35,156 nt of DNA from an uncultured Prevotellaceae bacterium (lineage in GTDB: Bacteria > Bacteroidota > Bacteroidia > Bacteroidales > Muribaculaceae), in assembly GCA_900318335.1 (NCBI GenBank), contig ONKF01000027.1, positions 1 to 35,156 on the forward strand. Reading direction: 5' to 3'. The position numbers and the translations under genes are program-made. Positions 1-31,231 of this stretch are shown piece by piece. Within the stretch, counting starts at the first letter, position 1. The number at the start of each line of letters is the position of its first letter. The notes under the pieces are model-generated. The model was not told where the DNA came from. It did no database searches and saw only the letters and a list, made by a program, of their open reading frames with translations.

Positions 1-2436
1 CTCGTGATACTGGGTGCGGATGTTGATGCCGCCATAGGCAACTCGCTCCATGTAATTAGTTTTGAAAATATCATTAGCAAGGATGGCAACACTCAAACTG
101 TTGTCCTTAAGGAACTGCTTACCCAAACGCAGATTCAGGTAGCCATTGGCCTCGGTCTGGCAGGGGCCTGATTCATTGTAAGGAGTGAAACCTCCTTTTA
201 TGTTCAACAGCCATGAGTGTGGTAACGAGAAGGTGTTGTCAAGCGTTATAACGGCAATAAGCCCATTCCACTTGTGGGTGATACCCATGGGGTAAACATC
301 ATCGTTGCAGAAATAGAGGTCTGCCGAATAGTTCATCTGCCAAAAACCCACTTTAGGCGTGAAATTTAATGTAATGCCATAATACTCCTGCTTGGGCGTA
401 TTGCGGTAGTCCATGATGACTACGCCGGGGTGATTTACGTCATCATAGGCCGTCTGGAAGGAGCGTATGCTATTCTTGTGATATTGATAGTAAGCTTCTA
501 CATTTATCCACTTCCATGAAGAAGACAACGAGAAATTGTGATGGGTCTGCGGTTGCAAGAGTGGATTGCCCGTGTCATATTCATACTTACTGCGGTAGTT
601 AACCGAGGAAGACAACAGGCTATACTGTGGATTGTATCGAGAGCAGTTATAAGACAATCGGTGCTGCCAATTCTCTGAGTTATAAGCCAGCGATACACGA
701 GGAATCAGCACTGAATAGTCAGGACTCATCTCATCATTGCGTTTACCATCGATGTCATAAATATTATGCTCATTTTGCCATCTCAGGCCCGTGTTCATCG
801 AGAATTTGCCAAGTCGCAACGAGTAGTTGGCAAAAAGGGACCAGATTGACGTTTCTTGTTTCACATGACTGTCGGCCGAGAAGCCACTCTGAATGAAATC
901 GTGAGTGCGATGCACCAATGAGGCTTCTTCGCCAAAGGTCAGTTCCCCTTTAGGCACTGGTGCTGTAATAACCAGTTTTTCGGCCAACAGGCGATCATTG
1001 GAATTCGTTTGGCTGCTGACAATGGTCGAGCCCTCTGTGCCGCCTTCCATGTTCTTTAGTGACTCAGCTTGATAGAAATCTGCGCTGAAGTTGATGTTCC
1101 ACTTGCCTATGCTGCCAACATAGTAGGCATTCACAGTGTGTCTCATGCGTGGCTTTTCCACTGTGTTCGTCATGCTGTGACCAGCATCAACAAGTTCACC
1201 ATCTCTCCACGTTTGTTCTTCCATCTCGCGTCGAGTAATACTGTTGCCGATGTAATTGAATGCCGTGTAAGTCAGACCAACCGAATGGTTATCGTTGATT
1301 TCCCAGTTCCAGCCCAAGTCAGCAAAATAATACTTCATTCTGAAAAGCCAAGATGCATCTTTCTTGTAGTCCCACGTTGAGGAGGCCTGCAATTGGTCCT
1401 GAGCTGTCGCATCAATCGCCAAATTATTATCGTTCAGATAACCACGAGCAAAGAAGTCCATGCCGTTGCGCAGTCGGTAGTTCAGGGCTGCATTGACGTT
1501 GGCGTAGTATTCTTTGCCTTGGCGGTATGAGGCCGAGAAATTGCCGCTCCAGCCTTCACCAGCCTTGCGCACGGTCTTCAGGCGGATGACCGAGGTCACG
1601 TCTGCACCGTATTCAGGGCCGGGATTGGTGATAATCTCGGCTGAGAGGATTTCGTCAGCACGGTAGCGGTCGAGTTCAGAGTTGTCACGCACTTTCTTGT
1701 TATTGATGTAGATTTCGGGCGTGCCATGACCTGCAATCTTGCCGTCACTCATCATCAGCGGCAGGTGGGTCAACATTTCAGTGACAGAGCCGAATTGTTC
1801 CAATACGGTGCCCTGCACGTTGGCGAGGATGCCATGATCGGTGGCGCGGACAAGTTGCTTGGCCCCCTTGACGATAACGCCGTCGAGCGCGAACTGATCG
1901 GGTTGCATCTTGATAGTGCCGACGTTGTCTCGGACGCACAGGCGATGCTCGGGCTTGTAGCCGACATAGGTGATGCGGGCGATGACCTTGCCGTGGTCGT
2001 TGGGGATGACGAAACGTCCACTCTCGTTGGTCACACCGCCGCCCACCATCGTCGAGTCTGCAGGATTGAGCAGGGTGACGTTGGCATAGGGAAGCGGCAG
2101 GTTGTTCTCGTCAACAACCAGCCCCTTGAGGTGATGCTCGGTCTTGTGGATGCATTCCACATAGATTTCGCCCTTCTCACCCTGGGTCATGCGGATGGGA
2201 TAGAAGCCTATCATCTGGCGGATAGCCTCGGGCACGGGCTTGTTCTTGATGTGGGTGGTAATAGTAAAGTCCTCCAACTCGTTATAGAGGAAATAGATGG
2301 TGTAGTCGTGGGATTCTTCGGCCAGCTGGCGCAGGGCGTCGGCAATCGACACGTCGCGGTAGTTGCGGGTCACACGCTGGGCCTGTGCTGCCACAAGGGT
2401 CATGCAGCACACAAGGAAAATGATGGCTTTTCTCAT
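1..2436 (-). CDS. TonB-dependent receptor with STN domain and PF14905-type barrel (3' end outside window)
   Basis: The frame stays open from the ATG at 2436 to the left edge (812 codons), so the C-terminus is missing. Visible in order: signal peptide (about residues 1-19, ending AAQAQ), an STN-like domain (about 20-95, with VSIADALRQLAEES), a carboxypeptidase-regulatory-like beta-sandwich (about 97-180), a plug with the family hallmark GTPEIYINNKKVRD and NPGPEYGADVTSVIRLKT, then beta-barrel strands. The plug text matches the outer-membrane beta-barrel family common in Bacteroidota. The STN domain in this family contacts a FecR-type anti-sigma factor in the periplasm, which fits the two genes upstream: the FecR-like stop lies only 4 nt before this ATG. 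Role inferred: energised uptake of an unknown ligand combined with surface signalling that induces its own operon. The substrate cannot be told from sequence. Confidence 0.9.
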   Translation of the reverse strand, partial: MRKAIIFLVCCMTLVAAQAQRVTRNYRDVSIADALRQLAEESHDYTIYFLYNELEDFTITTHIKNKPVPEAIRQMIGFYPIRMTQGEKGEIYVECIHKTEHHLKGLVVDENNLPLPYANVTLLNPADSTMVGGGVTNESGRFVIPNDHGKVIARITYVGYKPEHRLCVRDNVGTIKMQPDQFALDGVIVKGAKQLVRATDHGILANVQGTVLEQFGSVTEMLTHLPLMMSDGKIAGHGTPEIYINNKKVRDNSELDRYRADEILSAEIITNPGPEYGADVTSVIRLKTVRKAGEGWSGNFSASYRQGKEYYANVNAALNYRLRNGMDFFARGYLNDNNLAIDATAQDQLQASSTWDYKKDASWLFRMKYYFADLGWNWEINDNHSVGLTYTAFNYIGNSITRREMEEQTWRDGELVDAGHSMTNTVEKPRMRHTVNAYYVGSIGKWNINFSADFYQAESLKNMEGGTEGSTIVSSQTNSNDRLLAEKLVITAPVPKGELTFGEEASLVHRTHDFIQSGFSADSHVKQETSIWSLFANYSLRLGKFSMNTGLRWQNEHNIYDIDGKRNDEMSPDYSVLIPRVSLAYNSENWQHRLSYNCSRYNPQYSLLSSSVNYRSKYEYDTGNPLLQPQTHHNFSLSSSWKWINVEAYYQYHKNSIRSFQTAYDDVNHPGVVIMDYRNTPKQEYYGITLNFTPKVGFWQMNYSADLYFCNDDVYPMGITHKWNGLIAVITLDNTFSLPHSWLLNIKGGFTPYNESGPCQTEANGYLNLRLGKQFLKDNSLSVAILANDIFKTNYMERVAYGGINIRTQYHE

Positions 2437-2440
2437 GGTA

Positions 2441-3115
2441 TTACTGCACGATTAATCGGTTACCTGTTTGCTCAATTGATACGCTCTCAAAATGGCTCAT
2501 GTCCTCCAGCACCTTTTCCAGGCCGTCACCCTTGTTCCACACGAAGTGGAAACGCAGGTTGCGGGCATCGTCGTTCTGGAACTCGACCGTCATGCCGTAG
2601 TAGGCCGCTATCTCGTCGAGCATCTGCTCCAACGGGGTGTTGTCAAATACCACAGGCGCTTCGTCCTCGACAGCCGACGAGTCGGCCACGCCAAGGTTAG
2701 TCCCTGCTTCTGCTTCGGTCTGGGAAGTGTTGGCGACTTTTTCAGTCTTTTGTTTGGATGTGTCAGTAGCGGTGAGATGGCGCACGGTGTAAACCGTTGC
2801 CCATGCGATGCCCGACATCATCAGCACGCCAAGCACTGTCGCAGCTACTCTTAGCCACAGGCGTTCGTGCTTTTGCGCCGTTAGATGCGTTTGCTCGAAT
2901 TGCTCCCAGGCCTTGTCCTCGTCCACGGGTTGGGACAGGCTGCGCTGACTGCGACGGGCACGGGCGGCTTGGGTGAGACTGCGGTAGAATTCGCGCGTCT
3001 CGTCGTCACGGTTGACGGTATCCATGATTTCTTGTTCGCTGTAACGCTCGGGATGATCCAGCATATCCAGCAGACGGTCGATGTTGTTGTTCGTTTCCAT
3101 TGCGGTTGGTGTCAT
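2441..3115 (-). CDS. Short FecR-like anti-sigma factor (DUF4974 only)
   Basis: 224 residues if started at the ATG overlapping the sigma-factor stop (TAATG), which I prefer because it implies translational coupling. An ATG 30 nt upstream and one 15 nt downstream are alternatives. Residues 1-86 are charged and cytoplasmic (sigma-binding part). One membrane helix spans about 87-111 (RVAATVLGVLMMSGIAWATV). A low-complexity periplasmic linker covers about 112-153, and a DUF4974-like domain about 155-224 (VVFDNTPLEQMLDEIAAYYG). The usual FecR beta-domain between helix and DUF4974 is absent, which makes the protein roughly 100 residues shorter than typical family members. It probably holds the ECF sigma factor inactive until the STN-bearing receptor encoded next signals ligand binding. 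Confidence 0.85.
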   Translation of the reverse strand: MTPTAMETNNNIDRLLDMLDHPERYSEQEIMDTVNRDDETREFYRSLTQAARARRSQRSLSQPVDEDKAWEQFEQTHLTAQKHERLWLRVAATVLGVLMMSGIAWATVYTVRHLTATDTSKQKTEKVANTSQTEAEAGTNLGVADSSAVEDEAPVVFDNTPLEQMLDEIAAYYGMTVEFQNDDARNLRFHFVWNKGDGLEKVLEDMSHFESVSIEQTGNRLIVQ

Positions 3116-3597
3116 TAGATTAAACTCTTGATGCGATTGATACACTGACGCAAGTACTTATAGACGGCGCCCACGCTCATGTCAAGGCGTGTGGCGATTT
3201 CCTGGAAGGTCAATTCCTCGTCAAAGCGTAGACGGAAGATGGTCCGTTGCGGCTCCTCGATTTGGCCATCGACAATGGCGTTAATCCGGTCAAGTTCGGC
3301 CAGCACTTCCTCGATGGGGCGCGAGTCATTCACCTCGTCCAGTGGATGGAGGTGCTTGAACCGCTCACGCAACTGCATTTTCCTGATGTGGTTGATGCAA
3401 CCGTTGCGCACGGCGCTCATCAAGTAGGCCTCGGTCTTGTTGCCCGTCATCTGGTATCTATTCTCCAGCAGGCGGGCAAACACATCCTGGACCACGTCCT
3501 GGGCCTCAGCATCATCGTGCAGCAAGGTTCTGGCCAGATGTATCATCTTGCCGTAATGTTGCCTGAACAGGCCCTCAAGTATGCTCTTGTCATTCAT
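3115..3597 (-). CDS. ECF-type RNA polymerase sigma-70 factor
   Basis: 160 residues, the usual size for an extracytoplasmic-function sigma factor. Region 2 lies at about 5-70 (LFRQHYGKMIHLARTLL, DAQDVVQDVFARLLENR) and region 4 at about 108-158, with a helix-turn-helix (LTFQEIATRLDMSVGAVYKYLRQCINRIK). It is the first gene of a tightly packed three-gene unit with a FecR-like anti-sigma and a TonB-dependent receptor, the standard Bacteroidota arrangement for trans-envelope signalling. It likely directs polymerase to the promoter of its own operon and perhaps little else. No autoregulatory promoter distinct from the housekeeping type could be recognised. Confidence 0.95.
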   Translation of the reverse strand: MNDKSILEGLFRQHYGKMIHLARTLLHDDAEAQDVVQDVFARLLENRYQMTGNKTEAYLMSAVRNGCINHIRKMQLRERFKHLHPLDEVNDSRPIEEVLAELDRINAIVDGQIEEPQRTIFRLRFDEELTFQEIATRLDMSVGAVYKYLRQCINRIKSLI

Positions 3598-15290: not shown

Positions 15291-15391
15291 CTGTCTTGTG
15301 ATGATTTGGTTTTACAAAATAATATGTCACTCCAGCGCGGGTCATAGCAGACCTATGACTCCTGAAACCTGACGCCTAACGCATCCTGGAT

Positions 15392-18800: not shown

Positions 18801-18932
18801 GTGTGAAATCGGTTTAGATTTTTGGTGATACCCATGTGGTTTAAATTGATGGATTTCAGTTATTTATTAGGCCAGATAGGTTAGATTTTTGGTTTGAATG
18901 GGAGTGGAGTGTGTTTTTTATCATTACCTTTG
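18801..18932 (+). promoter_or_regulatory. Amylase control region: three repeat boxes and -7 element
   Basis: Box 1 TGTGAAATCGGTTTAGATTT (18802-18821, continuing TTGG to 18825). Box 2 GGTTTAAATTGATGG (18838-18852). Box 3 GGTTAGATTTTTGG (18879-18892, followed by TTTGAATGG). The -7 element TACCTTTG is at 18925-18932, 46 nt after the start of box 3. No good -33 element is present, which suggests activator dependence. The same layout occurs before susC at 22591-22721. I infer binding of the SusR-like regulator encoded downstream. Confidence 0.65.
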
Positions 18933-18970
18933 TGGAAAACAACAACCAATAAAAACCAAATTTCACTGCA

Positions 18971-20860
18971 ATGAGACGAGTATTGTCATTTTCCCTGTTG
19001 ATGATTGTGGCGCTGACATCGCTGGCAGCGGTCTATGAACCGTCACTGTCGAGCGACAGCGAGGTATGTGTGTTCTTTGAGGCCAATGGATCGGTCAATG
19101 ACTCGCCCAAAATCTGGGCCTGGGCCGGAAATACCGATGGCCGTGACTATGTGGGCACCTCGTGGCCTGGTCCCGCTATGACCTACATGGGTGACACCCC
19201 GAGCGGCAACAAGATCTACAAGTGGACCTATACGGGCACGCTCACGATGCCCACAGGACTGATTTTCACGTGGAATAGCGAGTCGGGCCGCGTTGACGGC
19301 ACGTTCACCAACCACGGCTACTACGTGATGGGGCAGTTGACCAAGATAATCGGTGCGGGTCCATCCACCTTCGTCCCCAACCAGAATGTCATCTACGAGC
19401 TTGACCTCTACAACTTTACCAGCCAGGGCACCCTGGCTGCCGCACAGCAGCGGCTGGACTATCTCAAGGACTTGGGCATCGACATCATCTGGCTCATGCC
19501 CATCCATCCCCGTGGTGTCCTGGGCCGTATCGGCTCGTTGGGCAGCCCCTACGCTCCCCGCGACTACCATGCGGTGAACAGCGACTTCGGCACCATGGCC
19601 GATCTCAAGGCCTTTGTCAACGCCGCCCACCAGCGGGGTATGCAAGTGTGGCTCGATTGGGTCGCAAACCATACCGCTAAAGATAATGTGTGGATTACCG
19701 AGCACCGCAACTACTATAACTCGACACTCACCAGCCCCAATGGCTATGGCGACGTCTACCAGCTCGATTACAGCAAGGAGGCTACTCAGCTGGCGATGAT
19801 CGAGGCGATGGAGTACTGGATTGACCAGGCTGACATCGACGGTTTCCGCTGCGACTACGTCAGCAGCAACACCATTCCCACCGAGTTTTGGACCCGTGCC
19901 ATCAAGGCGCTCAAGGAGTACAAGCCCGGCAAGACCATCACCATGCTGGGCGAGGGCGACATGGCCAATAGCGTGTCGCGTCTGCTCGTGTGTGGTTGGG
20001 ACTATGACTACGCATGGGGCTTCCAGTCGGCCCTGGTCAACAACAAGAACAATCCCACTGGCGTGCTCAACCAGTGCCGCAACCTGGTGGGCGACCTGCG
20101 GTTCATTGACATCAGCCGCATGGTCTATCTCACTAACCACGACCAGAACTACAACAGCTCGATGAACACCCAGTATGGCAACAATGCCTATGCTTTCACG
20201 GTGCTGACGTTCACCCTCTATGGTATGCCCATGCTCTACAACGGTCAGGAGACAGGTTACCTGATGTCGCGTAAGCTGGATTACTTCAACCGCACGCCCA
20301 TCAACTGGAACTCCGTCGACAACAAGATGCTGAACACCGTCAAGGCCCTGACGGCCCTCAAGCACAGCTGCGACGCGCTCATCGACAATGGCGACCGTGC
20401 CAGCGAAGTGACTTTCCTCACCACTGGCAACGCTAATCTCGTCGCATATACCCGCCACCATGGCAACCAGACGGCCCTCGTGGTCCTCAACCTGGGCAGC
20501 AGCACGGTCAATACCGTGGTGACCGGCCTCGAGGCTGGCGAGTGGAAACTGGCAATCGATGTGGACAACATCAGTGCAGGCCTGACTGACACTCCCGTTA
20601 ACATGAATTCCACCCAGAGTTTCTCGGTGCCCGCTGGAGGCTACAAGGTTTATTACCGCGGGGAGCCTGCAAGCCATGAGCTTGAGGGTGACGTGAACCT
20701 GGATGGTGAGATATCTATCGGTGACGTGTCGGCGATTATCGACATCCTGCTGGGATCAGATGTGGACGATGCGCTCATGAAACGTGCCGATTTGAACCAC
20801 GATGGTGAAGTGACTATCGGCGATTTGGGCGAGGTGATCGACATTTTATTGAATAATTAA
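18971..20860 (+). CDS. Secreted GH13 alpha-amylase with CBM26-like and dockerin-like modules
   Basis: 629 residues. A type I signal peptide (about 1-19) with no lipobox, unlike the lipoprotein SusG. A starch-binding CBM26-like module spans about 28-125 (VFFEANGSVNDSPKIWAWAG, WPGPAMTYMG, FTNHGYYVMG). The GH13 barrel follows (about 135-480) with nucleophile Asp295 in DGFRCDYV, acid Glu328 in GEGDM and transition-state Asp391 in LTNHDQ. A C-terminal all-beta domain covers about 485-560. Residues about 568-629 hold two dockerin-like EF-hand repeats (GDVNLDGEISIGDVSAIID; ADLNHDGEVTIGDLGEVID). Predicted role: endo-cleavage of starch or maltodextrins outside the cell or in the periplasm, feeding the SusCD transporter downstream. 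The susR-like gene follows after 34 bp, so the two are probably co-transcribed. Confidence 0.93.
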   Translation: MRRVLSFSLLMIVALTSLAAVYEPSLSSDSEVCVFFEANGSVNDSPKIWAWAGNTDGRDYVGTSWPGPAMTYMGDTPSGNKIYKWTYTGTLTMPTGLIFTWNSESGRVDGTFTNHGYYVMGQLTKIIGAGPSTFVPNQNVIYELDLYNFTSQGTLAAAQQRLDYLKDLGIDIIWLMPIHPRGVLGRIGSLGSPYAPRDYHAVNSDFGTMADLKAFVNAAHQRGMQVWLDWVANHTAKDNVWITEHRNYYNSTLTSPNGYGDVYQLDYSKEATQLAMIEAMEYWIDQADIDGFRCDYVSSNTIPTEFWTRAIKALKEYKPGKTITMLGEGDMANSVSRLLVCGWDYDYAWGFQSALVNNKNNPTGVLNQCRNLVGDLRFIDISRMVYLTNHDQNYNSSMNTQYGNNAYAFTVLTFTLYGMPMLYNGQETGYLMSRKLDYFNRTPINWNSVDNKMLNTVKALTALKHSCDALIDNGDRASEVTFLTTGNANLVAYTRHHGNQTALVVLNLGSSTVNTVVTGLEAGEWKLAIDVDNISAGLTDTPVNMNSTQSFSVPAGGYKVYYRGEPASHELEGDVNLDGEISIGDVSAIIDILLGSDVDDALMKRADLNHDGEVTIGDLGEVIDILLNN

Positions 20861-20894
20861 GTAATCAGGCATCGGCCTTTTTGGGGGGATCGAT

Positions 20895-22532
20895 ATGAGG
20901 AGATTTGTGATACTGACGGTGGTGGCAATGTGCGTTGTTCATGTAGCCGGGGCATTGCCTGCCGATGCTTTCCAGCGCTTGGACAACCTGATTGCCACAC
21001 AACCTGCTATAGTGGCCGAGAAGGAGGCCCGTCTCGCCCGCATGAAGGCCGACCTGGCCCGCGAGACGTCAGCAGCGGGACGCTATTCCTCGTTGAGGAG
21101 GCTCTATGAGGAATACTCGGCCTACCAGTATGATTCGGCCTATGCCTACGTCAGCCAGTGCATCAACCTCGCTATGGCTATGGGTAACGAGTCCCTCCTC
21201 AACGAGAGCCGCCTGAACCTGGCTCACATCCTTTCCACAGCCTGCCTGATGGACAAGGCCCGCTCGACCTTGAACCAGATCGACACGACCCGCTTGACAC
21301 CAAGCCAGCTCGTCGTGTATCACCGTACCCTCACCGACCTGCTCATTTACCAGGCCGAGTACATGCAAGGTACACAATATGCCGAGGAGTATGTGCAGCA
21401 GCTGATACAAGTGCGCCGGAGTGCGATAGCTGTCAATATCCCTCACGACAATATCAATTACCTGATCACGCAGGCTGAGTGCTATGCCGATAACAATCAG
21501 TACCAGCGTGCCATCGACTTGCTGGCCAAGTTGGTAGGTGACTACCATTCTGGCGATCGCATGTACTCCATCATCACGAGCACCATGTCGTTCTATTATT
21601 CTCAGTTGGGCGACAAGGAGCAGCAGATGCAATACCTCATCAAGAGTGCCGAGAGTGATCTGGAGGGTTGCATCCGCGAGAATACGTCGTTGAGGGCGAT
21701 TGCCGACCGCCTGTTTGACGAGGGCGACATCGACCGCGCCTACCGCTACATGCGCGTGGCGGTGGACGATGCCAACTTCTATGGCACGCGCCTGCGCAAC
21801 ATCCAGGCCGCACACATTGTACCCAAGATTCTCACGGCCTATCAGACCAAGCAGGAGCGCAACCACCGCAACATGATGTGGCTGCTCGGCATTATATCGG
21901 TCATTGCGGCAATGCTTGTGGTGGGTGTGATCGCCATCTACCAGCTGCTCAAGCGCTATCGCCGATTGAATGAACAGAAGAAGGCCATCAATGAGCAGTT
22001 GCACCAGGTCAATGTACAGTTGGGTGACACGGTCGAGCAATTGCACGAGAGCAACGGGCTGTTACGCGAGCGCGAGAAATTGAAAGAGGAGTATATCGCC
22101 CGATTCCTGACCTTGTCAAGCCGCTTTATCGATCGCGGCGAGGAGCAGCGCAAGGCCATGTATCGCCTGTATCGCGACCGCAAAACCGAGGATTTGGCAC
22201 GGGCGTTGAAGAGCACCCACTTCGGCAACGAGAATGCCCAGTTGTTCTATGAGAACTTTGATAACGCGTTCTTGAACATTTACCCCACCTTTGTCGATGA
22301 GGTGAACAAACTCCTCCAGGAGGACGGCAAGATTGAGGTCAAGCAGGGCAAGCGACTGACCACCGAGTCGCGCGTGTTGGCACTCATTCGCATCGGCATC
22401 ACCGACAACCAGAGCATCGCAGCGATCCTGCGTGCCAGCCTGACGACCATCTACACCTACCGCTCCAAACTCAAGGCTCGCGCTCTCGACAAGGACAACT
22501 TCGAGAGCAATGTCAAGTCGATCGACTGTTGA
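20895..22532 (+). CDS. susR: SusR-like membrane transcriptional regulator
   Basis: 545 residues. A signal sequence or first helix (about 1-20) is followed by a periplasmic alpha-helical, TPR-like sensor (about 25-320), one membrane helix (about 327-352, MMWLLGIISVIAAMLVVGVIAIYQLL), a coiled coil (about 353-398, rich in Gln, Leu and Glu) and a cytoplasmic DUF6377-type region. The end (about 485-530) is a helix-turn-helix (RVLALIRIGITDNQSIAAILRASLTTIYTYRSKLKAR). This is the architecture of SusR, which senses maltose or longer malto-oligosaccharides in the periplasm and activates sus genes. Its place between amylase and susC supports the assignment. No promoter of its own is visible, so it should rise with the amylase transcript. 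Confidence 0.88.
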   Translation: MRRFVILTVVAMCVVHVAGALPADAFQRLDNLIATQPAIVAEKEARLARMKADLARETSAAGRYSSLRRLYEEYSAYQYDSAYAYVSQCINLAMAMGNESLLNESRLNLAHILSTACLMDKARSTLNQIDTTRLTPSQLVVYHRTLTDLLIYQAEYMQGTQYAEEYVQQLIQVRRSAIAVNIPHDNINYLITQAECYADNNQYQRAIDLLAKLVGDYHSGDRMYSIITSTMSFYYSQLGDKEQQMQYLIKSAESDLEGCIRENTSLRAIADRLFDEGDIDRAYRYMRVAVDDANFYGTRLRNIQAAHIVPKILTAYQTKQERNHRNMMWLLGIISVIAAMLVVGVIAIYQLLKRYRRLNEQKKAINEQLHQVNVQLGDTVEQLHESNGLLREREKLKEEYIARFLTLSSRFIDRGEEQRKAMYRLYRDRKTEDLARALKSTHFGNENAQLFYENFDNAFLNIYPTFVDEVNKLLQEDGKIEVKQGKRLTTESRVLALIRIGITDNQSIAAILRASLTTIYTYRSKLKARALDKDNFESNVKSIDC

Positions 22533-22590
22533 CGTGGTTGTGGCGGCCATGGATTGAACGGACGAAATGGGGGATTTTTGCGATTTTCTC

Positions 22591-22721
22591 TTGTGAAATC
22601 AGTTAGATTCTTTGTTGACTGACGTTCGGTTAATGCATTGGATGATAGTTGGTTAACTGAAATTCAAAGTTTGATTTTTGTTTGAAGCCCTTTTGGCATG
22701 CGTGCGAGCATTGTAAATTTG
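22591..22721 (+). promoter_or_regulatory. susC control region: repeat boxes matching the amylase upstream region
   Basis: Box 1 TGTGAAATCAGTTAGATTCT (22592-22611, continuing TTG). Box 2 GGTTAATGCATTGG (22628-22641), weak. Box 3 AGTTTGATTTTTGTTTGAAG (22668-22687). The -7 element TAAATTTG is at 22714-22721, with TTTG (22692-22695) 18 nt upstream of it. Distances box1-box2-box3-(-7) are 27, 40 and 46 nt, against 27, 41 and 46 before the amylase gene. The leader to the ATG is about 75 nt. Confidence 0.65.
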
Positions 22722-22799
22722 CAATGCTTAACTTTTTGGCATCCTAATCCAGCTGCAACCAGATAACCCAATCATATTTTTATTAAATAACTTTTTGAC

Positions 22800-25772: not shown

Positions 25773-27602
25773 ATGATTATGAAAGATTTCAAATATATCA
25801 TCATAGCAATAGCAGTGAGCGTGTTGGGTCTGTCGTCTTGTACCGACCTCGATGAGAAGGTCAACGACCGCATCGACGCCACCGTGTATTATCAGAACGA
25901 AGCCAGTGTGAAAGGTGCCGTGGCGGCCATCTACAACCAGACGTCATCGACCCTCGCCGGCGAGAATTTCTTCCACCTCAGCGAGTATCCTGCCGACCAG
26001 CTGACCTGGCGCGTGTGGAATGGTGGACAATGGGGCTGGGACGAGGCCATGAAGACCGTGCTCTCCTGGCACAACTGGAACAGCGAGTCCACAATTATCC
26101 AAAACGCATGGTCGGGTGCTTGGACAGCCGTTGGACTGGCCAACCTCTTGCTCAACGACCTTGGGGTCCTCGACGCTGAGTCCTTGGGTATGACTCCCGA
26201 GAAACTCAACCAGTATGTGGCCGAGGTGCGTACCATCCGCGCTTGGAATTACTACTGCCTGTTTGAACTCTGGGGTGGTGCGCTGCCCTTGAATGTCAAG
26301 GCTGGCAGTGAGGTGCCCGGCACCGCCGATCCCGACTGGGATGTTTCTTGCAAGAAAATCTATCAGTTCATCATGGATGAGCTCGACCAGACCTATTTGC
26401 AGCTGGCCAAGGAGGATGGTACCCGCAGTACCGTCAACCGTGCCAACCAGGCCATGAACCGCATGTTGAAGGCCCGTTTGTTGCTCAATGCCGAGATTTT
26501 CATCAAGGAGGCCCATTATGATGAGTGCGAGGCCCTGTCCAAGCAGATCATCAATGGCGACTTCGGTACCTATCGTCTCGCCGACAACTACCGTGACCTC
26601 TACAGTATCGATAACGTGAAGTGCCCCGAGGTCATCTTTGCCCTTGCGGCTGAGGATGGACAGGGTGCCGCCAATGCCATCAGCAACGTGCGCACCATGG
26701 TGGGTATGTGGTATGGCTATGCCGACTACTTCGGACAGTCCTATGACGGCATCGGTGCATGGAATTGCGTTTGCCTCGTTCCGAGCTTTGACAATGCTGG
26801 TACGATTCTGCCTACTGGTGGCTCTGAGGGTGCCAACTGCTTCCTCGATTCACCCTATAACGACAAGTTGGGTGCTCCCTATGAGCGTTTTGACGATCGC
26901 GATATCCGCAAGCAGAACTATGTATATAATGTCACCACCCGCACCCATGGTCCCGGTATGTTCCTCAAGGGCGTGATGCGTGCCAACTTTGGCACGGGCG
27001 ATGTCCTCAAGGCTGATGCCGACCGTGATGGACAGGATCTGGTCTATGTGGATCAGGTGGGTACCTTCCTGAATCAGGGCCGTGTCCTCGAGACGGTGAT
27101 GAGTCCGCGATGGGGCGAGACCAACTCGGGCGTGCGCCTGGTGAAGTATCCTCTCTATCCTAATGATGATGCCGGTGGCTTCAAGTCGATCGACGATGTG
27201 CAGTTCCGCTTGGCCGAGGCTTATTATAATGTTGCCGAGTGTGAGATGCGCAAGGGCAATAGTGGCGAGGCACGCAACTATGTGGATGCCGTTCGCCAGC
27301 GCTACTTCACCGCTGCCAATCGCGCTTCGGCCCTCTCGGTGCCTGGTCCCGGCTTCACCGCCTTTGACATGGACTGGATGTTGAGCGAGTGGGGTAAGGA
27401 ATACCTGGGCGAGGGCAACCGCCGTCGCACCGACCTGCGCCGCTTTGACAAGTTCACCCAGGGCACATGGTGGTTCTGGGGTCGCGCCACCGAGCCAGGC
27501 ATCGACCTGCCCGCTAAGCGCAGCACCAAGTATGAGTGGTATCCGCTGCCTCAGTCGGCTCTGTCAGTCAATCCGGGTCTTATCCAGAATCCCAATTATT
27601 AA
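25773..27602 (+). CDS. susD: SusD-like starch-binding outer-membrane lipoprotein
   Basis: 609 residues from the first ATG; a second ATG two codons later is equally possible. Lipoprotein signal with lipid Cys23 (LGLSSC, then TDLDEK). The RagB/SusD fold is indicated by an N-terminal helical region with AEVRTIRAWNYYCLFELWGGALPL, TPR-like helices (RANQAMNRMLKARLLLNAEIFIK) and the conserved C-terminal segment LSEWGKEYLGEGNRRRTDLRRFDKFTQG, ending with PLPQSALSVNPGLIQNPNY. It caps SusC at the cell surface and captures the glycan. Gaps of 15 bp from susC and 27 bp to the next gene show one operon. Confidence 0.95.
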   Translation: MIMKDFKYIIIAIAVSVLGLSSCTDLDEKVNDRIDATVYYQNEASVKGAVAAIYNQTSSTLAGENFFHLSEYPADQLTWRVWNGGQWGWDEAMKTVLSWHNWNSESTIIQNAWSGAWTAVGLANLLLNDLGVLDAESLGMTPEKLNQYVAEVRTIRAWNYYCLFELWGGALPLNVKAGSEVPGTADPDWDVSCKKIYQFIMDELDQTYLQLAKEDGTRSTVNRANQAMNRMLKARLLLNAEIFIKEAHYDECEALSKQIINGDFGTYRLADNYRDLYSIDNVKCPEVIFALAAEDGQGAANAISNVRTMVGMWYGYADYFGQSYDGIGAWNCVCLVPSFDNAGTILPTGGSEGANCFLDSPYNDKLGAPYERFDDRDIRKQNYVYNVTTRTHGPGMFLKGVMRANFGTGDVLKADADRDGQDLVYVDQVGTFLNQGRVLETVMSPRWGETNSGVRLVKYPLYPNDDAGGFKSIDDVQFRLAEAYYNVAECEMRKGNSGEARNYVDAVRQRYFTAANRASALSVPGPGFTAFDMDWMLSEWGKEYLGEGNRRRTDLRRFDKFTQGTWWFWGRATEPGIDLPAKRSTKYEWYPLPQSALSVNPGLIQNPNY

Positions 27603-27629
27603 TCGTAACAACTAATACATGACAACGAT

Positions 27630-29048
27630 ATGAAAACAAGGAATATATATAGTCTGATAGTGGCGCTGCTGGCCGTCATGAGCGTGATGACCAGTTGCTC
27701 CAAGGATGAGGACATCATCTTTGAGCATGAGCGTCAGCAGTTTGAGACCCGTGCCGATCGCATCCTGCTTGAGTTCATCGCTCCCTACGGTACCGCAGTC
27801 GATGAGGAAATCTACATCATGGGTGCATTCAATGGCGACAGCGCATCGATGGGTAAGGAGCAGTGGAAACTCATGAAGGCTCCCGGCAGTGACATCAAGT
27901 GGGGTATCTATTTGGATCCCTCAACCTTTGTCAATGGCAAGACGCTGGCCGACGGTTTCCGTTTCTACAGCGCTACCCAGGGCACCGAGTTCACCGTCAA
28001 GGGTGAGATCGCTAACCACACCGACAACCCTGGACTGGGCACCTTCACCAACGTGTGGGGTGAACGCTGGGAGAGCTACTACTGGAGTGGTGACGGTCCC
28101 GAGATTGAGCATGACGGCTTTGTGGTCTATGTGCTCGACGAGACGGGCTGGAACAACCTGAACCTCTACATGTGGGGTGACGTGAATAACCTCAATGGTG
28201 ATTGGCCCGGCATGACGCCCACTGGCAAGCAGAAAATCGGTGGTACCGAATATACCTACTTCGACATGGGCGCAGCCAACACGGGTCTGAACGAGAACCT
28301 CATCTTCAACAACGGTGAGGGTTCCCAGTTGGCCGACTTCAACTTCACCATCGACCACGACATCTATCTGCGTGTGACCGCAAGCGGTGTCGAGGAGTTG
28401 GGTGAGCCTGAGGTCGTGGAGCATGACGGCTTTGCGGTGTTTGTGGTCGACAAGACCGGTTGGAATGCGCTGAACCTCTACATGTGGGGCGACGTGAACG
28501 ACCTGAACGGTGGTTGGCCCGGCATGGTTCCCACGGGTGAGCAGACCATCAAGGGTGTGACCTATACCTATTTTGATATGGGTGACGTCAATACTGGCCT
28601 GACCGAGAACCTCATTTTCAACAATGGTGAGGGAACTCAGCTGGCCGACTATGCTTACACCATCGACCACGACCTCTATCTGGAGGTGACCGCCAGTGGT
28701 GTGACCGAGATCGATCCTGCTACCTATACAGGTGGCGGTGACACCCCTGAGCCCCCGACTGGCGACCTGCATTACATCTATGTGGACGACAAGACGGGTT
28801 GGGACGCTATTGCCCTGTATGCTTGGGGTGACAAGGAGTTCTTCGGTGGCTGGCCTGGCGCATTGCCCACCGGCACCAAGACCGTCGACGGCGTGAACTA
28901 CATCTATTGGGAATTCACCAGCGCCGGCGAGACCGAGCACCTCATCTTCAACAACAATGGTGGAGGTTCTCAGACACCCGACTTCGACGTTGTGCTCGAC
29001 CGTGACTATTACCTCACGGTGACAGCCAGCGGTGTGACAGCCAAGTAA
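27630..29048 (+). CDS. SusE/SusF-like surface lipoprotein with three CBM26-like repeats
   Basis: 472 residues. Lipoprotein signal with Cys23, followed by SKDED, typical of surface-exported lipoproteins. An N-terminal beta-sandwich spans about 45-155 (LLEFIAPYGTAVDEEIYIMGAFNGD). Three similar modules of about 95-104 residues follow, at about 160-263, 264-365 and 378-472. Each has TGW-hydrophobic LYMWGD / LYAWGD, GDWPGM or GGWPGA, ENLIFNNGEG or EHLIFNNNGGG and YL-VTASGV. These match starch-binding CBM26-type modules. It replaces SusE/SusF, which carry tandem starch-binding modules in the same operon position. Likely role: holding starch at the surface beside SusCD. A terminator follows directly. 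Confidence 0.88.
   Translation: MKTRNIYSLIVALLAVMSVMTSCSKDEDIIFEHERQQFETRADRILLEFIAPYGTAVDEEIYIMGAFNGDSASMGKEQWKLMKAPGSDIKWGIYLDPSTFVNGKTLADGFRFYSATQGTEFTVKGEIANHTDNPGLGTFTNVWGERWESYYWSGDGPEIEHDGFVVYVLDETGWNNLNLYMWGDVNNLNGDWPGMTPTGKQKIGGTEYTYFDMGAANTGLNENLIFNNGEGSQLADFNFTIDHDIYLRVTASGVEELGEPEVVEHDGFAVFVVDKTGWNALNLYMWGDVNDLNGGWPGMVPTGEQTIKGVTYTYFDMGDVNTGLTENLIFNNGEGTQLADYAYTIDHDLYLEVTASGVTEIDPATYTGGGDTPEPPTGDLHYIYVDDKTGWDAIALYAWGDKEFFGGWPGALPTGTKTVDGVNYIYWEFTSAGETEHLIFNNNGGGSQTPDFDVVLDRDYYLTVTASGVTAK
28107..28730 (+). repeat. Two tandem ~312-bp direct repeats coding for CBM26-like modules 1 and 2
   Basis: Units 28107-28418 and 28419-28730 both begin GAGCATGACGGCTTT and share long near-identical stretches such as AACCTCTACATGTGGGG and GAGAACCTCAT-TTCAACAA. 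The third module (from about 28761) is more diverged at DNA level. The first two are therefore a younger in-frame duplication. Confidence 0.75.
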
Positions 29049-29062
29049 ACACTATTTCCCCC

Positions 29063-29108
29063 AATCAGGGCAGGGCTTTCTACCTGCTTCTTCTGCTCTG
29101 CCCTGATT
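29063..29108 (+). terminator. Terminator after the susC-D-E-like operon
   Basis: Perfect 11-bp stem AATCAGGGCAG / CTGCCCTGATT (29063-29073 with 29098-29108), 24-nt loop, followed by ATTATTG. It starts 14 nt after the stop codon of the SusE/F-like gene. Confidence 0.75.
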
Positions 29109-29172
29109 ATTATTGAACGGAGTGGCAATTCTGCTCCATCATTAATGAGAGTTCAAGTTTTACGGGCAAGAT

Positions 29173-29204
29173 GTTGCCGTAATGGGAAAATTACGCTATA
29201 TTTG
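29173..29204 (+). promoter_or_regulatory. Promoter of the GH97 gene
   Basis: TATATTTG (29197-29204) fits the -7 consensus. GTTG (29173-29176) lies 20 nt upstream as a weak -33. About 44 nt before the ATG. Together with the terminator before it, this makes the GH97 gene a separate transcription unit. Confidence 0.55.
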
Positions 29205-29248
29205 CATTTGTAAACTTGATGATTAACAAATGTAACTAGAATAAGAAT

Positions 29249-31231
29249 ATGAAGAAGATATTGTTCCTGGTTATAATCTGCCTGTGCGCCAATGTATTAG
29301 CTGTTGCTAAGGACGCGAAGGTAAGCTCGCCTGACGGGTCCTTGACAGTGACCGTGGGCGTGGATGGTGGCCGAGCCTGGTATCAGGTGAATCGAGGCAA
29401 TGAGTTGATTCTGGGCCGTTCGGAATTGGGCTTTGTGCTCAAGGACAGCGACTTGAGGGGCAACTTCAAGATGGGCAAGGTGACCAGCTCGTCGCTTGAC
29501 GAGACTTGGAGCCAACCCTGGGGCGAGGATGCGGTAGTGCGCAATCATTACAACGAGATGCGGGTCACCTTGCAAGAACGGGGTGGTCTCAAGCGTCAGT
29601 TGGGTGTTGCGGTACGCGCTTTCAATGATGGCGTGGCGCTGCGTTATGAGTTCCCCCGCCAGCGTGGCCTTCAGGACTTCGTCATCATCGACGAGGTGAC
29701 CGAGTTTGCTCTGCCCACCGATGCCCAGGCGTGGTCGATTCCCGCACTGACTGCCTATTACGAGGGAATCTACACCCGTGAGCTCGTGAGCAAGAAAGGC
29801 AATATGGCGGGTCCCGTCGCTCTCGAGGTGAACGACTCGCTCTACATGGCCATCATGGATGCCAACCTGACCGACTACTCGACGATGAATTTTTCTCACA
29901 ATGGGACGACGCTCAAAGCCGACCTTGTGCCCTGGAAGAATGGTGACCGGGTGAGGGTGGGAGAGACCCGTGTGAGCCCTTGGCGTGCCATTATCATCGG
30001 ACGCACGGCTGCCGACATCCTGCTCTCGCGCATGGCGCTTAACCTCAATGAGCCCTGCAAAATTCAGGATACCTCGTGGCTGAAGCCTTCCAAGTATGTG
30101 GGAATCTGGTGGGCTATGCAGAAACAGCAGTGGACCTGGTCCCAGGGTGAGCGCCATGGCGCCACTACTGCCAATACCAAGCGCTACATCGACTTCGCTG
30201 CCCGTCATGGTCTGGGCGGCGTGTTGGTTGAGGGCTGGAACTACGGCTGGGATACTGACTGGACCAAGCATGGCGACGGCTTCTCGTTCACCCGGGCCTA
30301 TCCCGACTACGACCTGCAGGGCCTGTGCCGCTATGCTGCTGAGCGTGGCGTGCGCATCATCGCCCACAACGAGACGGGTGGCGCGGCCCAGAACTACGAG
30401 AACCAGCTCGAGGACGCTTATCGCCTCTATGAGTCGCTGGGCATCAACACGGTCAAGACCGGTTATGTCAACTCTCATTTCTATAACGGGGAGCTCCAGC
30501 ATTCACAGTGGGGTGTACAGCACTTCCGCAAGGTCATCGAGACCGCCGCGCGCTACCACCTGATGATTGTCAATCATGAGGGAGCGATACCCAGCGGTAT
30601 CCAGCGCACGTGGCCCAACCTGATTGCGACCGAGAGCATGCGTGGCCAGGAATACAACGCGTTTGACCGTGGCGGTGGCAATCCGCCTTATCACGAGTGC
30701 ATCCTGCCGTTCACACGCGGTCTGGGTGGTCCGATGGACTTCACGCCCGGCATTTTCAACTATGACAACGAGGCTGTGCCCGGCACTTGTCCTAAGAACA
30801 CGCTTGCCCACCAGCTGGCCGAATACATCGTTATCTATAGCCCGGGTCACATGGCTGCCGACCTGATTGAGAACTATGAGCATCAGCCCGCCTTTAAGTT
30901 CATCGAGGAGGTGCCCACCAACTGGGAACGCACCCTTGTGCCCCATGCGGCAATGGGTCAGTATGTGACTTATGCGCGTCAGGAACGCGGTACCGACAAC
31001 TGGTACGTCGGCAGCGTCACCGATGCCAAGGCCCGCGACCTGGAACTGCCGCTCGATTTCCTGGGTGACGGTAAATATATGGCGATTATCTATGAGGATG
31101 GTCCCGATGCCGACTATCGCACCAATCCTTATCCGATGACCATTCGCCGTCTGGACGTGAACCGGAATACCGTGCTACATCTACATCTGGCACCTGGAGG
31201 CGGAACCGCCATCCAGCTCCTGGCCCGATAA
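29249..31231 (+). CDS. susB: GH97 alpha-glucosidase, inverting SusB type
   Basis: 660 residues, with a signal peptide (about 1-20). GH97 N-terminal beta-sandwich (SSPDGSLTVTVGVDGGRAWYQV), a (beta/alpha)8 barrel (KYVGIWWAMQ, GVLVEGWNYGWDTDW) and a C-terminal beta domain. The residues match the inverting SusB subgroup: Glu375 (HNETGG) and Glu444 (NHEGA) as calcium/base glutamates and Glu468 (RGQEYN) as the acid. KTGY stands where retaining GH97 enzymes have an Asp nucleophile. It releases glucose from the non-reducing ends of malto-oligosaccharides in the periplasm after SusCD import. It has its own promoter and a strong terminator directly after the stop. Confidence 0.94.
   Translation: MKKILFLVIICLCANVLAVAKDAKVSSPDGSLTVTVGVDGGRAWYQVNRGNELILGRSELGFVLKDSDLRGNFKMGKVTSSSLDETWSQPWGEDAVVRNHYNEMRVTLQERGGLKRQLGVAVRAFNDGVALRYEFPRQRGLQDFVIIDEVTEFALPTDAQAWSIPALTAYYEGIYTRELVSKKGNMAGPVALEVNDSLYMAIMDANLTDYSTMNFSHNGTTLKADLVPWKNGDRVRVGETRVSPWRAIIIGRTAADILLSRMALNLNEPCKIQDTSWLKPSKYVGIWWAMQKQQWTWSQGERHGATTANTKRYIDFAARHGLGGVLVEGWNYGWDTDWTKHGDGFSFTRAYPDYDLQGLCRYAAERGVRIIAHNETGGAAQNYENQLEDAYRLYESLGINTVKTGYVNSHFYNGELQHSQWGVQHFRKVIETAARYHLMIVNHEGAIPSGIQRTWPNLIATESMRGQEYNAFDRGGGNPPYHECILPFTRGLGGPMDFTPGIFNYDNEAVPGTCPKNTLAHQLAEYIVIYSPGHMAADLIENYEHQPAFKFIEEVPTNWERTLVPHAAMGQYVTYARQERGTDNWYVGSVTDAKARDLELPLDFLGDGKYMAIIYEDGPDADYRTNPYPMTIRRLDVNRNTVLHLHLAPGGGTAIQLLAR

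Follow-up and report, generated by a model that had tools for sequence, protein, structure and literature searches.

The promoters of the amylase gene and of susC in a gut-type bacterium carry similar arrays, one on either side of a gene for a SusR-like regulator (DUF6377). Each array contains two direct TTAGATTTTTGG-like boxes exactly 67 bp apart, a 25-bp palindrome with its midpoint 40 bp past the first core and a TAnnTTTG element 44 bp beyond the second core. It is very probable that both regions are activator-dependent starch promoters read by the SusR-like regulator encoded between them, the boxes, and most likely the palindrome as well, being its sites; binding of SusR to the arrays is what their sequence and position lead us to infer. 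As judged from aligned promoters, the geometry (boxes 67 bp apart, palindrome centre at +40, -7 element 44 bp past the second core) is kept from the genus of this bacterium to Bacteroides.

Two similar arrays and the gene between them

The window, that is, the whole stretch of 35,156 nucleotides that was analysed, carries the genes concerned on its plus strand. A GH13 alpha-amylase with a weak CBM26-like region and a dockerin-like one (18971..20860), the first putative target, is followed by the regulator (20895..22532), the candidate reader of the arrays. SusC (TIGR04056; 22800..25757) opens the second target operon. The genes for SusD, a CBM26 SusE/F-like protein and GH97 (25773..31231) have no 67-bp pair of their own and are presumably transcribed from the susC promoter. 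Nor was a 67-bp pair with a -7 element found ahead of the GH97 gene in the 14 loci, window included, in which its start motif was found.

In the amylase array a flank, TGTGAAATCGGT (18802..18813), partly conserved within the genus, leads into the core of box 1, TTAGATTTTTGG (18814..18825). The palindrome (18842..18866, centre 18854) agrees with 11 of 12 consensus positions; the core of box 3, again TTAGATTTTTGG, lies 67 bp past box 1 (18881..18892), and the -7-type element TACCTTTG at 18925..18932. The susC array repeats this order, with a flank TGTGAAATCAG (22592..22602), box 1 TTAGATTCTTTG (22603..22614), a palindrome matching 9 of 12 positions (22631..22655, centre 22643), box 3 TTTGATTTTTGT (22670..22681), likewise 67 bp on, and the element TAAATTTG (22714..22721). 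Boxes, flanks and -7 elements all read along the plus strand, and TGTGAAATC is present in both arrays, at 18802 and 22592. The coordinates bear out the constant-offset likeness, and the outer boxes, that a sequence-only reading of this DNA had noticed: the local alignment score of the two regions, 21, exceeds that of every one of 1000 dinucleotide-shuffled pairs (mean 10.8, maximum 19). The 46 nt which that reading placed between box 3 and TAnnTTTG are the same interval as our 44, counted from two bases ahead of the TTAG core.

TTTG and TAnnTTTG form the promoter consensus. In the amylase promoter the stretch from box 3 (last TTTG at 18893) to the -7 element is free of TTTG, in agreement with the earlier remark that this promoter wants a good -33 element. 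Unlike it, the susC promoter has a TTTG at 22692-22695, 18 nt ahead of the -7 element.

What kind of protein is the regulator? It matches DUF6377 at 4e-77 (259.5 bits against a Pfam cut-off of 36.7) and SusR_regulator at 1.4e-138. Since its score against NF058541 (NCBIfam), 463.3 bits over residues 25-543 of 545, falls under the equivalog cut-off of 480, we call it SusR-like and claim no equivalog status for it. The structural model has TPR-like helices (27-296), a long helix (299-376) and C-terminal helices (490-528), and its best PDB matches are TPR proteins. Model and sequence, read directly rather than through a predictor, suggest a periplasmic TPR-like sensor, a membrane-spanning helix and cytoplasmic HTH-like helices.

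Conservation and spacing of the box pair

If the arrays are operators, are they kept upstream of orthologous genes, as the sequence-only reading expected of SusR-like operators with a promoter-proximal box? Among 28 amylase orthologue loci the -7 element is present in all and the box pair, at six mismatches or fewer, in 27. Ahead of susC the array is present in 14/14 loci in which the susC start and a -7 element were found; in the other 14 of the 28 loci susC was not detected by the screen. The -7 element lies at +43/+44 in 26/26 amylase arrays, in 13/14 susC arrays and in 6/6 arrays ahead of an unlinked CBM26-like protein. This retention at both genes supports the proposed operators.

The spacing itself is sharp. 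In the window and 58 further loci, 37 pairs are 67 bp apart, against a mean of 1.0 over the other 100 distances; a motif-free analysis finds the same distance in 35 of 468 upstream regions, where the median is 2. A second expectation, that the boxes should not occur at random across the genome, holds for pairs and fails for single boxes. In the bacterium's own genome the single-box search stays at background (69/82, control 70/87), whereas there are three 67-bp pairs (control, none), the third preceding an unlinked protein with a CBM26-like module. Thirty genomes with a close orthologue of the regulator yield 63 pairs against 14 for the reversed-pattern control, and among 397 family genomes 28 carry a composite of box 3 and the -7 element, at one mismatch or fewer, with 29 occurrences in all (control, 0).

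All 28 unlinked pairs in the thirty genomes were fetched. Eighteen have a -7 element, at +44 (16) or +43 (2); 17 of these precede a CBM26-like protein of about 1279-1297 residues and one precedes GH97. None of the other ten precedes either. By BLASTP the module of the own-genome protein shares 47% identity with the CBM26 protein encoded in the locus; Pfam does not call CBM26 there at E 0.01, and it is the BLASTP match that makes the link. The array geometry predicts unlinked regulon members, such as this protein outside the locus, from sequence alone.

The central palindrome

What lies between the boxes? The middle element has the form TAA-N5-TGA-N3-TCA-N5-TTA. Its centre, +40, is the top dyad centre in the amylase, susC and CBM26-like-protein arrays, and joint column permutation reaches this dyad in 1, 0 and 0 of 2000 trials, respectively. 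The sequence-only reading had rightly seen that both arrays share a middle element. It had taken this for a GGTT box at +27; the conserved part is the TAA/TGA/TCA/TTA from +28 to +52 of the box-1 core. Only in two Bacteroides groups are the arms box-like (9.0 and 7.3 of 10 matches); elsewhere they match at 2.8-3.8, which counts against the reading that SusR recognises both.

Is the same arrangement found outside the genus? From 33 selected Bacteroides-genus promoters, in which 67 and 77 bp are the dominant spacings, we scored 8 distinct ones at 67 bp and 14 at 77 bp, the rest having other spacings or being duplicates. The palindrome word, as defined in the window's genus, fits best at the offset seen in that genus in 22/22. 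These represent some six independent lineages, because 7 of the 8 and 9 of the 14 each fall in one. The dyad score peaks at +40 in the 77-bp promoters and at +36, not +40, in the 67-bp ones, though the word sits at +28 there; in four promoters at 66 bp no position stands out for the palindrome, with 27, 36, 28 and 29 nearly level. The offset of the palindrome is a blind test in Bacteroides, anchoring apart. The 67/77-bp spacing is not a blind test here, because searches succeeded only once lineage-specific box words had been picked, after inspection, from the aligned promoters; 67/77 bp is, besides, the spacing already in print. Among the first motif-free or fixed-length searches of distant or Bacteroides loci, one gave few pairs and no peak at 67, and another gave 6 matches against 1 and 0 in controls; a strict 15-mer test in Bacteroides gave 2/311 against 1 and 2, the boxes there being shorter. 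Seven Bacteroides-genus genomes were fetched at two regulator loci each, and in five (G411, G416, G419, G487, G503) the box words clearly differ between the loci. The boxes thus follow the regulator, not the species.

Who reads the palindrome?

Box 3 stands at either 67 or 77 bp, a difference of one helical turn, but the palindrome does not move relative to box 1, and for this reason we think it most likely that the palindrome too is read by SusR. We lean, with less confidence than for the arrays as starch promoters, towards a general statement: SusR-family promoters, at least in the window's genus and Bacteroides, would have a third, undescribed operator, the 25-bp palindrome, whose distance to the distal box does not vary; the proximal box could shift by one helical turn and would move together with the -7 element. 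In that case SusR would work on a folded site of three parts, as a multimer or together with one conserved partner, rather than as a simple dimer joining two boxes far apart.

Could the boxes be SusR sites and the palindrome the operator of a separate conserved regulator, gating these promoters jointly with SusR? This is the main rival, and we rate it as possible though rather unlikely. An odd-centred dyad would suit a dimeric regulator, the arm consensus varies, in our reading, less between lineages than the boxes do, and the own-genome count of the palindrome is 38 against 9, 9, 3, 13 and 13 for five control words. Only one of the 38 falls within a 67-bp pair; of 22 places inspected (20 stretches), 17 are intergenic and 5 within short reading frames. 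Yet the distance to box 1 is fixed across genera, and the 36 distinct palindromes outside arrays lie at no constant distance from a -7 element. Once arrays are masked, 1.07 Mb of genus loci contain the word 10 times (class median 2, maximum 12), which ranks it no higher than within the upper few per cent of its class. The motif of the known global sugar regulator, Cur/BT4338, moreover, differs and is even-centred (available parts of PMC6989115 and PMC3878776), and has no match near the arrays.

A role for the palindrome as a general promoter operator was also considered and rejected, on the lack of a common -7 distance and the partial origin of the Bacteroides excess in array sequence. In non-array genus promoters the palindrome is found in 22/354 (rank 8 of 192). 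In non-array Bacteroides promoters it is found in 26/241 (rank 1 of 192), an excess that is partly array sequence counted via neighbouring -7 elements; stricter exclusion leaves it at rank 2, array remnants still included.

The sequence-only reading had proposed three boxes of one kind and orientation, with the middle one at +27, along one face of the helix. In its favour, the genus loci show lesser spacing peaks at 27 (7 pairs) and 40 (10 pairs), and some amylase middles read TTAAATTTATGG. But in each of the three promoter classes the conserved middle columns make up a dyad, the middles shown for susC, the CBM26-like protein and Bacteroides look unlike a direct box at +27, and none of the distances 27, 40 and 67 bp makes a whole number of helical turns (67 bp, at 10.5 bp per turn, gives about 6.4). 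The middle element, a palindrome, keeps a different register, and the proposal is already disfavoured and very doubtful; it is the change from 67 to 77 bp in Bacteroides that preserves helical phase. Least credible is a recent promoter duplication, itself already disfavoured, whose T-rich boxes would act only as UP elements for RNA polymerase. T tracts are present and box 3 lies within the usual UP-element zone, but only spaced elements are common to the two regions (61/131 positions identical in register), and both the pair and the palindrome turn up again at unlinked promoters, as well as in a second genus whose box words differ.

How, then, might SusR work at these promoters? Starch oligosaccharides would bind its periplasmic TPR domain, and cytoplasmic HTH domains would occupy both boxes. 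The proximal box would bring SusR to a point immediately before the -33 zone, which is empty in the amylase promoter, and from there SusR would recruit RNA polymerase. The palindrome would most likely be read by a pair of HTH domains within a multimer.

Comparison with known systems

The Cur/BT4338 (Crp-like) operator resembles the arrays in that both place a palindrome in sugar-gene promoters. Its motif, wwwTATGTTnTAnAACATAwww, is even-centred and bears no resemblance to the palindrome of the window, where TATGTTnTAnAACATA has a single three-mismatch match, at 15306, which is chance level. HTCS operators are likewise direct repeats upstream of susC genes, but the spacing given in the accessible text of PMC3878776 averages about 21 bp, against 67 bp here, which sets the arrays apart from that class.

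SusR was the first regulator of a polysaccharide utilisation locus to be described; its mechanism was termed undefined in 2019 (PMC6874557, in part), and PMC11633381, as far as its available text goes, treats SusR genetics and shows no binding motif. SusR of B. thetaiotaomicron (BT3705), which according to the accessible text of PMC3878776 activates two operons, is likewise a membrane regulator whose gene neighbours those for susC/susD, GH97 and amylase. The window protein differs in scoring just below the SusR equivalog cut-off, and an unlinked CBM26-like target was found here.

Closest of all are the SusR-like operators predicted in Bacteroides by Ravcheev et al. 2013 (PMC3878776, available parts), direct repeats with centres 67 or 77 bp apart. 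Because that pair of boxes was already predicted, the core of our finding is another instance of a known architecture: two direct-repeat sites, 67 bp apart, ahead of operons that lie together with a gene for a SusR-like protein. The organism is another one, the closest named contigs being from uncultured Bacteroidales, several labelled ruminant. The same text speaks of a long spacer lacking conservation and suggests a dimer, whereas the arrays carry a conserved palindrome in the spacer and a -7 element at a fixed distance. As Bacteroides spacers carry the palindrome too, it is the description of the family that is amended; the window arrays are not excluded from it. This raises the question of how a membrane-anchored protein holds three sites over some 80-90 bp. 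With distances this exact (palindrome centre 40 bp and second box 67 or 77 bp from the first box, -7 element 44 bp further on), the SusR mechanism becomes testable.

Paired boxes before the amylase and susC genes

A repeat search made without any motif returned a 13-mer in four copies, two before the amylase gene (box cores at 18814 and 18881) and two before susC (box cores at 22603 and 22670), the members of each pair lying exactly 67 bp apart. The sequence-only reading had held that the two surrounding regions of 131–132 bp are similar, and their alignment beats those of all 1000 dinucleotide-shuffled pairs. Are such boxes scattered at random through the genome? It had supposed that they are not. 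This failed for the single box, which shows no excess over chance in the 3.15-Mb genome, but held for the pair: at 67 bp and up to three mismatches it occurs three times, the control giving none. These are the two arrays and one pair on another contig, before the gene for a 1279-aa protein.

Conservation within the genus

In the window and 58 further loci, 67 bp is the peak box distance (37 pairs, against a mean of 1.0 at the other 100 distances). A motif-free distance scan again placed 67 first, with 35 of the 468 upstream regions against a median of 2. The distances 99 (27) and 21 (20) stand out too, the former fitting a dockerin coding repeat. The loci with a regulator ortholog number 28, the window and 27 fetched. 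All have the −7 element (TAnnTTTG) before the amylase, and 27 have the box pair there (up to six mismatches), L059 having box 1 one base off. The same array precedes susC in all 14 loci for which both a susC start and a −7 element could be located. Wider screening of the remaining 14 gave no susC-like frame; L063 has an open frame that resembles susC and lacks its start. The arrays are kept before orthologous genes, as the sequence-only reading requires. A composite of box 3 and −7 element (at most one mismatch) gave 29 matches in 28 of 397 family genomes, four of the 28 being other genera, and none for the control. We conclude, with high confidence, that both arrays are predicted operators of the SusR family.

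A central palindrome

Column conservation across the arrays has three peaks, the middle one being TAA-N5-TGA-N3-TCA-N5-TTA, at +28 to +52 from the start of the box-1 core. The axis of this dyad, at +40, was picked after inspection; it ranks top among 56 tested axes in each of three agreeing promoter classes taken alone (26 amylase, 13 susC and 22 CBM26-like-protein arrays). Joint permutation of spacer columns, which preserves relatedness among arrays, reached a dyad as strong as the one observed in one of 2000 trials for the amylase class and in none of 2000 for each of the other two. These loci hold 76 pair places; the dyad counts exclude 12 distinct places that have no −7 element. The palindrome word fits best at +28 in amylase promoters of 27 of the 28 loci (second in L083) and likewise before susC in the 14 loci noted above, a descriptive count since the word was derived from these promoters. 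A further inverted repeat, GAGCATTGTAAATTTGCAATGCTT (22706–22729), overlaps the susC −7 element and likely start site, and is kept in part in the susC promoter consensus.

Does the palindrome extend beyond the genus? The set comprised 40 stretches around regulator genes from the genus of Bacteroides stercorirosoris and six named loci, four of them from Bacteroides and two of Prevotella type. Selection with lineage-specific box words kept 33 promoters of 317 candidates, with spacings of 77 (14) and 67 (9) dominating. Among 41 or 31 offsets, +28 was the best for the window-genus palindrome word in 22 of 22 Bacteroides-genus promoters (14 at 77, 8 distinct at 67), once in a tie. The palindrome thus keeps its distance from box 1 at both spacings, and the 10 bp by which they differ, roughly one turn of the helix, fall between it and box 3. 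The −7 element lies 44 bp from box 3 in Bacteroides by construction of the test, and was also observed there in four promoters. In the Prevotella-type promoters, two with boxes 66 bp apart, TCA and a following TTA or TTG lie near the expected places, the palindrome peak not being clear. In Prevotella falsenii, pallens and aurantiaca a pair stands before the regulator gene itself (L141:9532, L142:9541, L143:9568); its spacing of 89 bp exceeds 67 by about two helical turns, and its −7 element is at +44. The palindrome is very likely a real part of the promoter.

In one Bacteroides group the right arm of the palindrome repeats the box half-site in inverted form (9.0 of 10 matches); the match is 7.3 of 10 in a second group and 2.8–3.8 elsewhere. 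In 13 of 61 promoter windows, several of which overlap or are orthologs, the spacer matches box 3 in inverted orientation at 9 of 10 positions, against 3.5% with shuffled spacers. Among seven genomes fetched at two regulator loci each, box words clearly differ between the loci in five (L327/L331, L311/L329, L320/L337, L330/L332, L321/L338); in L326/L340 and L313/L344 one member lacks a confident box-word assignment. We lean somewhat towards the prediction that SusR itself reads the palindrome. A site for a second regulator is the less likely alternative, kept in consideration by the excess of the palindrome word elsewhere in the window's own genome (38 places, against 9, 9, 3, 13 and 13 for control words). 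The word is some 3–4 times commoner than most control words and largely intergenic, at no fixed distance to a promoter element; tandem copies occur twice (L286:2064–2088 with 2120–2144; L287:2032–2056 with 2119–2143).

Candidate unlinked targets

The unlinked 1279-aa protein carries a dockerin-like domain and, C-terminally, a module that shares 47% identity with the CBM26 protein of the starch locus. Thirty genomes with a close regulator ortholog, the window's own included, hold 63 pairs at 67 bp (reversed-pattern control, 14). Of these, 28 are unlinked, and all were fetched and read. TAnnTTTG follows the second core at +44 in 16 and at +43 in two. Judged by N-terminus, all 18 precede relatives of the 1279-aa protein (17, one of them truncated where the fetched stretch stops) or a GH97-like gene (one); the remaining ten have neither downstream. 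Dockerin-type regions form the end of both the amylase (20694–20844 of the window) and this unlinked CBM26-like protein (L076:5771–9610).

The regulator and its locus

The starch locus comprises the amylase (18971–20860), the DUF6377 regulator (20895–22532), SusC, SusD, the CBM26 protein and GH97. The regulator matches DUF6377 (E 4e-77) and the NCBIfam SusR_regulator model (1.4e-138; 463.3 bits, under the cut-off of 480). Its AlphaFold model (mean pLDDT 83, pTM 0.59) suggests a TPR-like domain and a long helix across a presumed membrane segment; the modelled C-terminal helices 490–500, 506–511 and 516–528 look like a helix-turn-helix. TPR proteins are its best structural neighbours in the PDB, and the sequence search found no solved relative (best E 0.4).

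This genome has a second DUF6377 gene (L077:8215–9879), whose neighbours are a susC-type locus and a GH3-like gene; no 67-bp pair of TTAGATTTTT boxes was seen close to it. In 14 of 28 genus loci the fetched stretch showed no susC-like frame, and in several of these 14 GH97 starts close to the regulator, which suggests that the starch locus has been rearranged within the genus. On the minus strand of 1–3597, translations alone indicate consecutive genes for a sigma factor-like, a FecR-like and a TonB-receptor-like protein, putatively another carbohydrate-sensing type of system.

Comparison with known systems

In the accessible text of Ravcheev et al. 2013 (PMC3878776), SusR binding sites are said to have stayed uncharacterised; the SusR-like motifs predicted there are direct repeats at a distance of 67 or 77 bp, and the spacer is called long and non-conserved. 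The literature that could be searched yielded neither a third element nor a measured SusR site, and to that extent the palindrome is new. The Cur/BT4338 motif, as given in the accessible part of PMC6989115, shows no resemblance to it. With the SusR-like motifs described in the accessible text of PMC3878776, the arrays of the window share the same two-box architecture.
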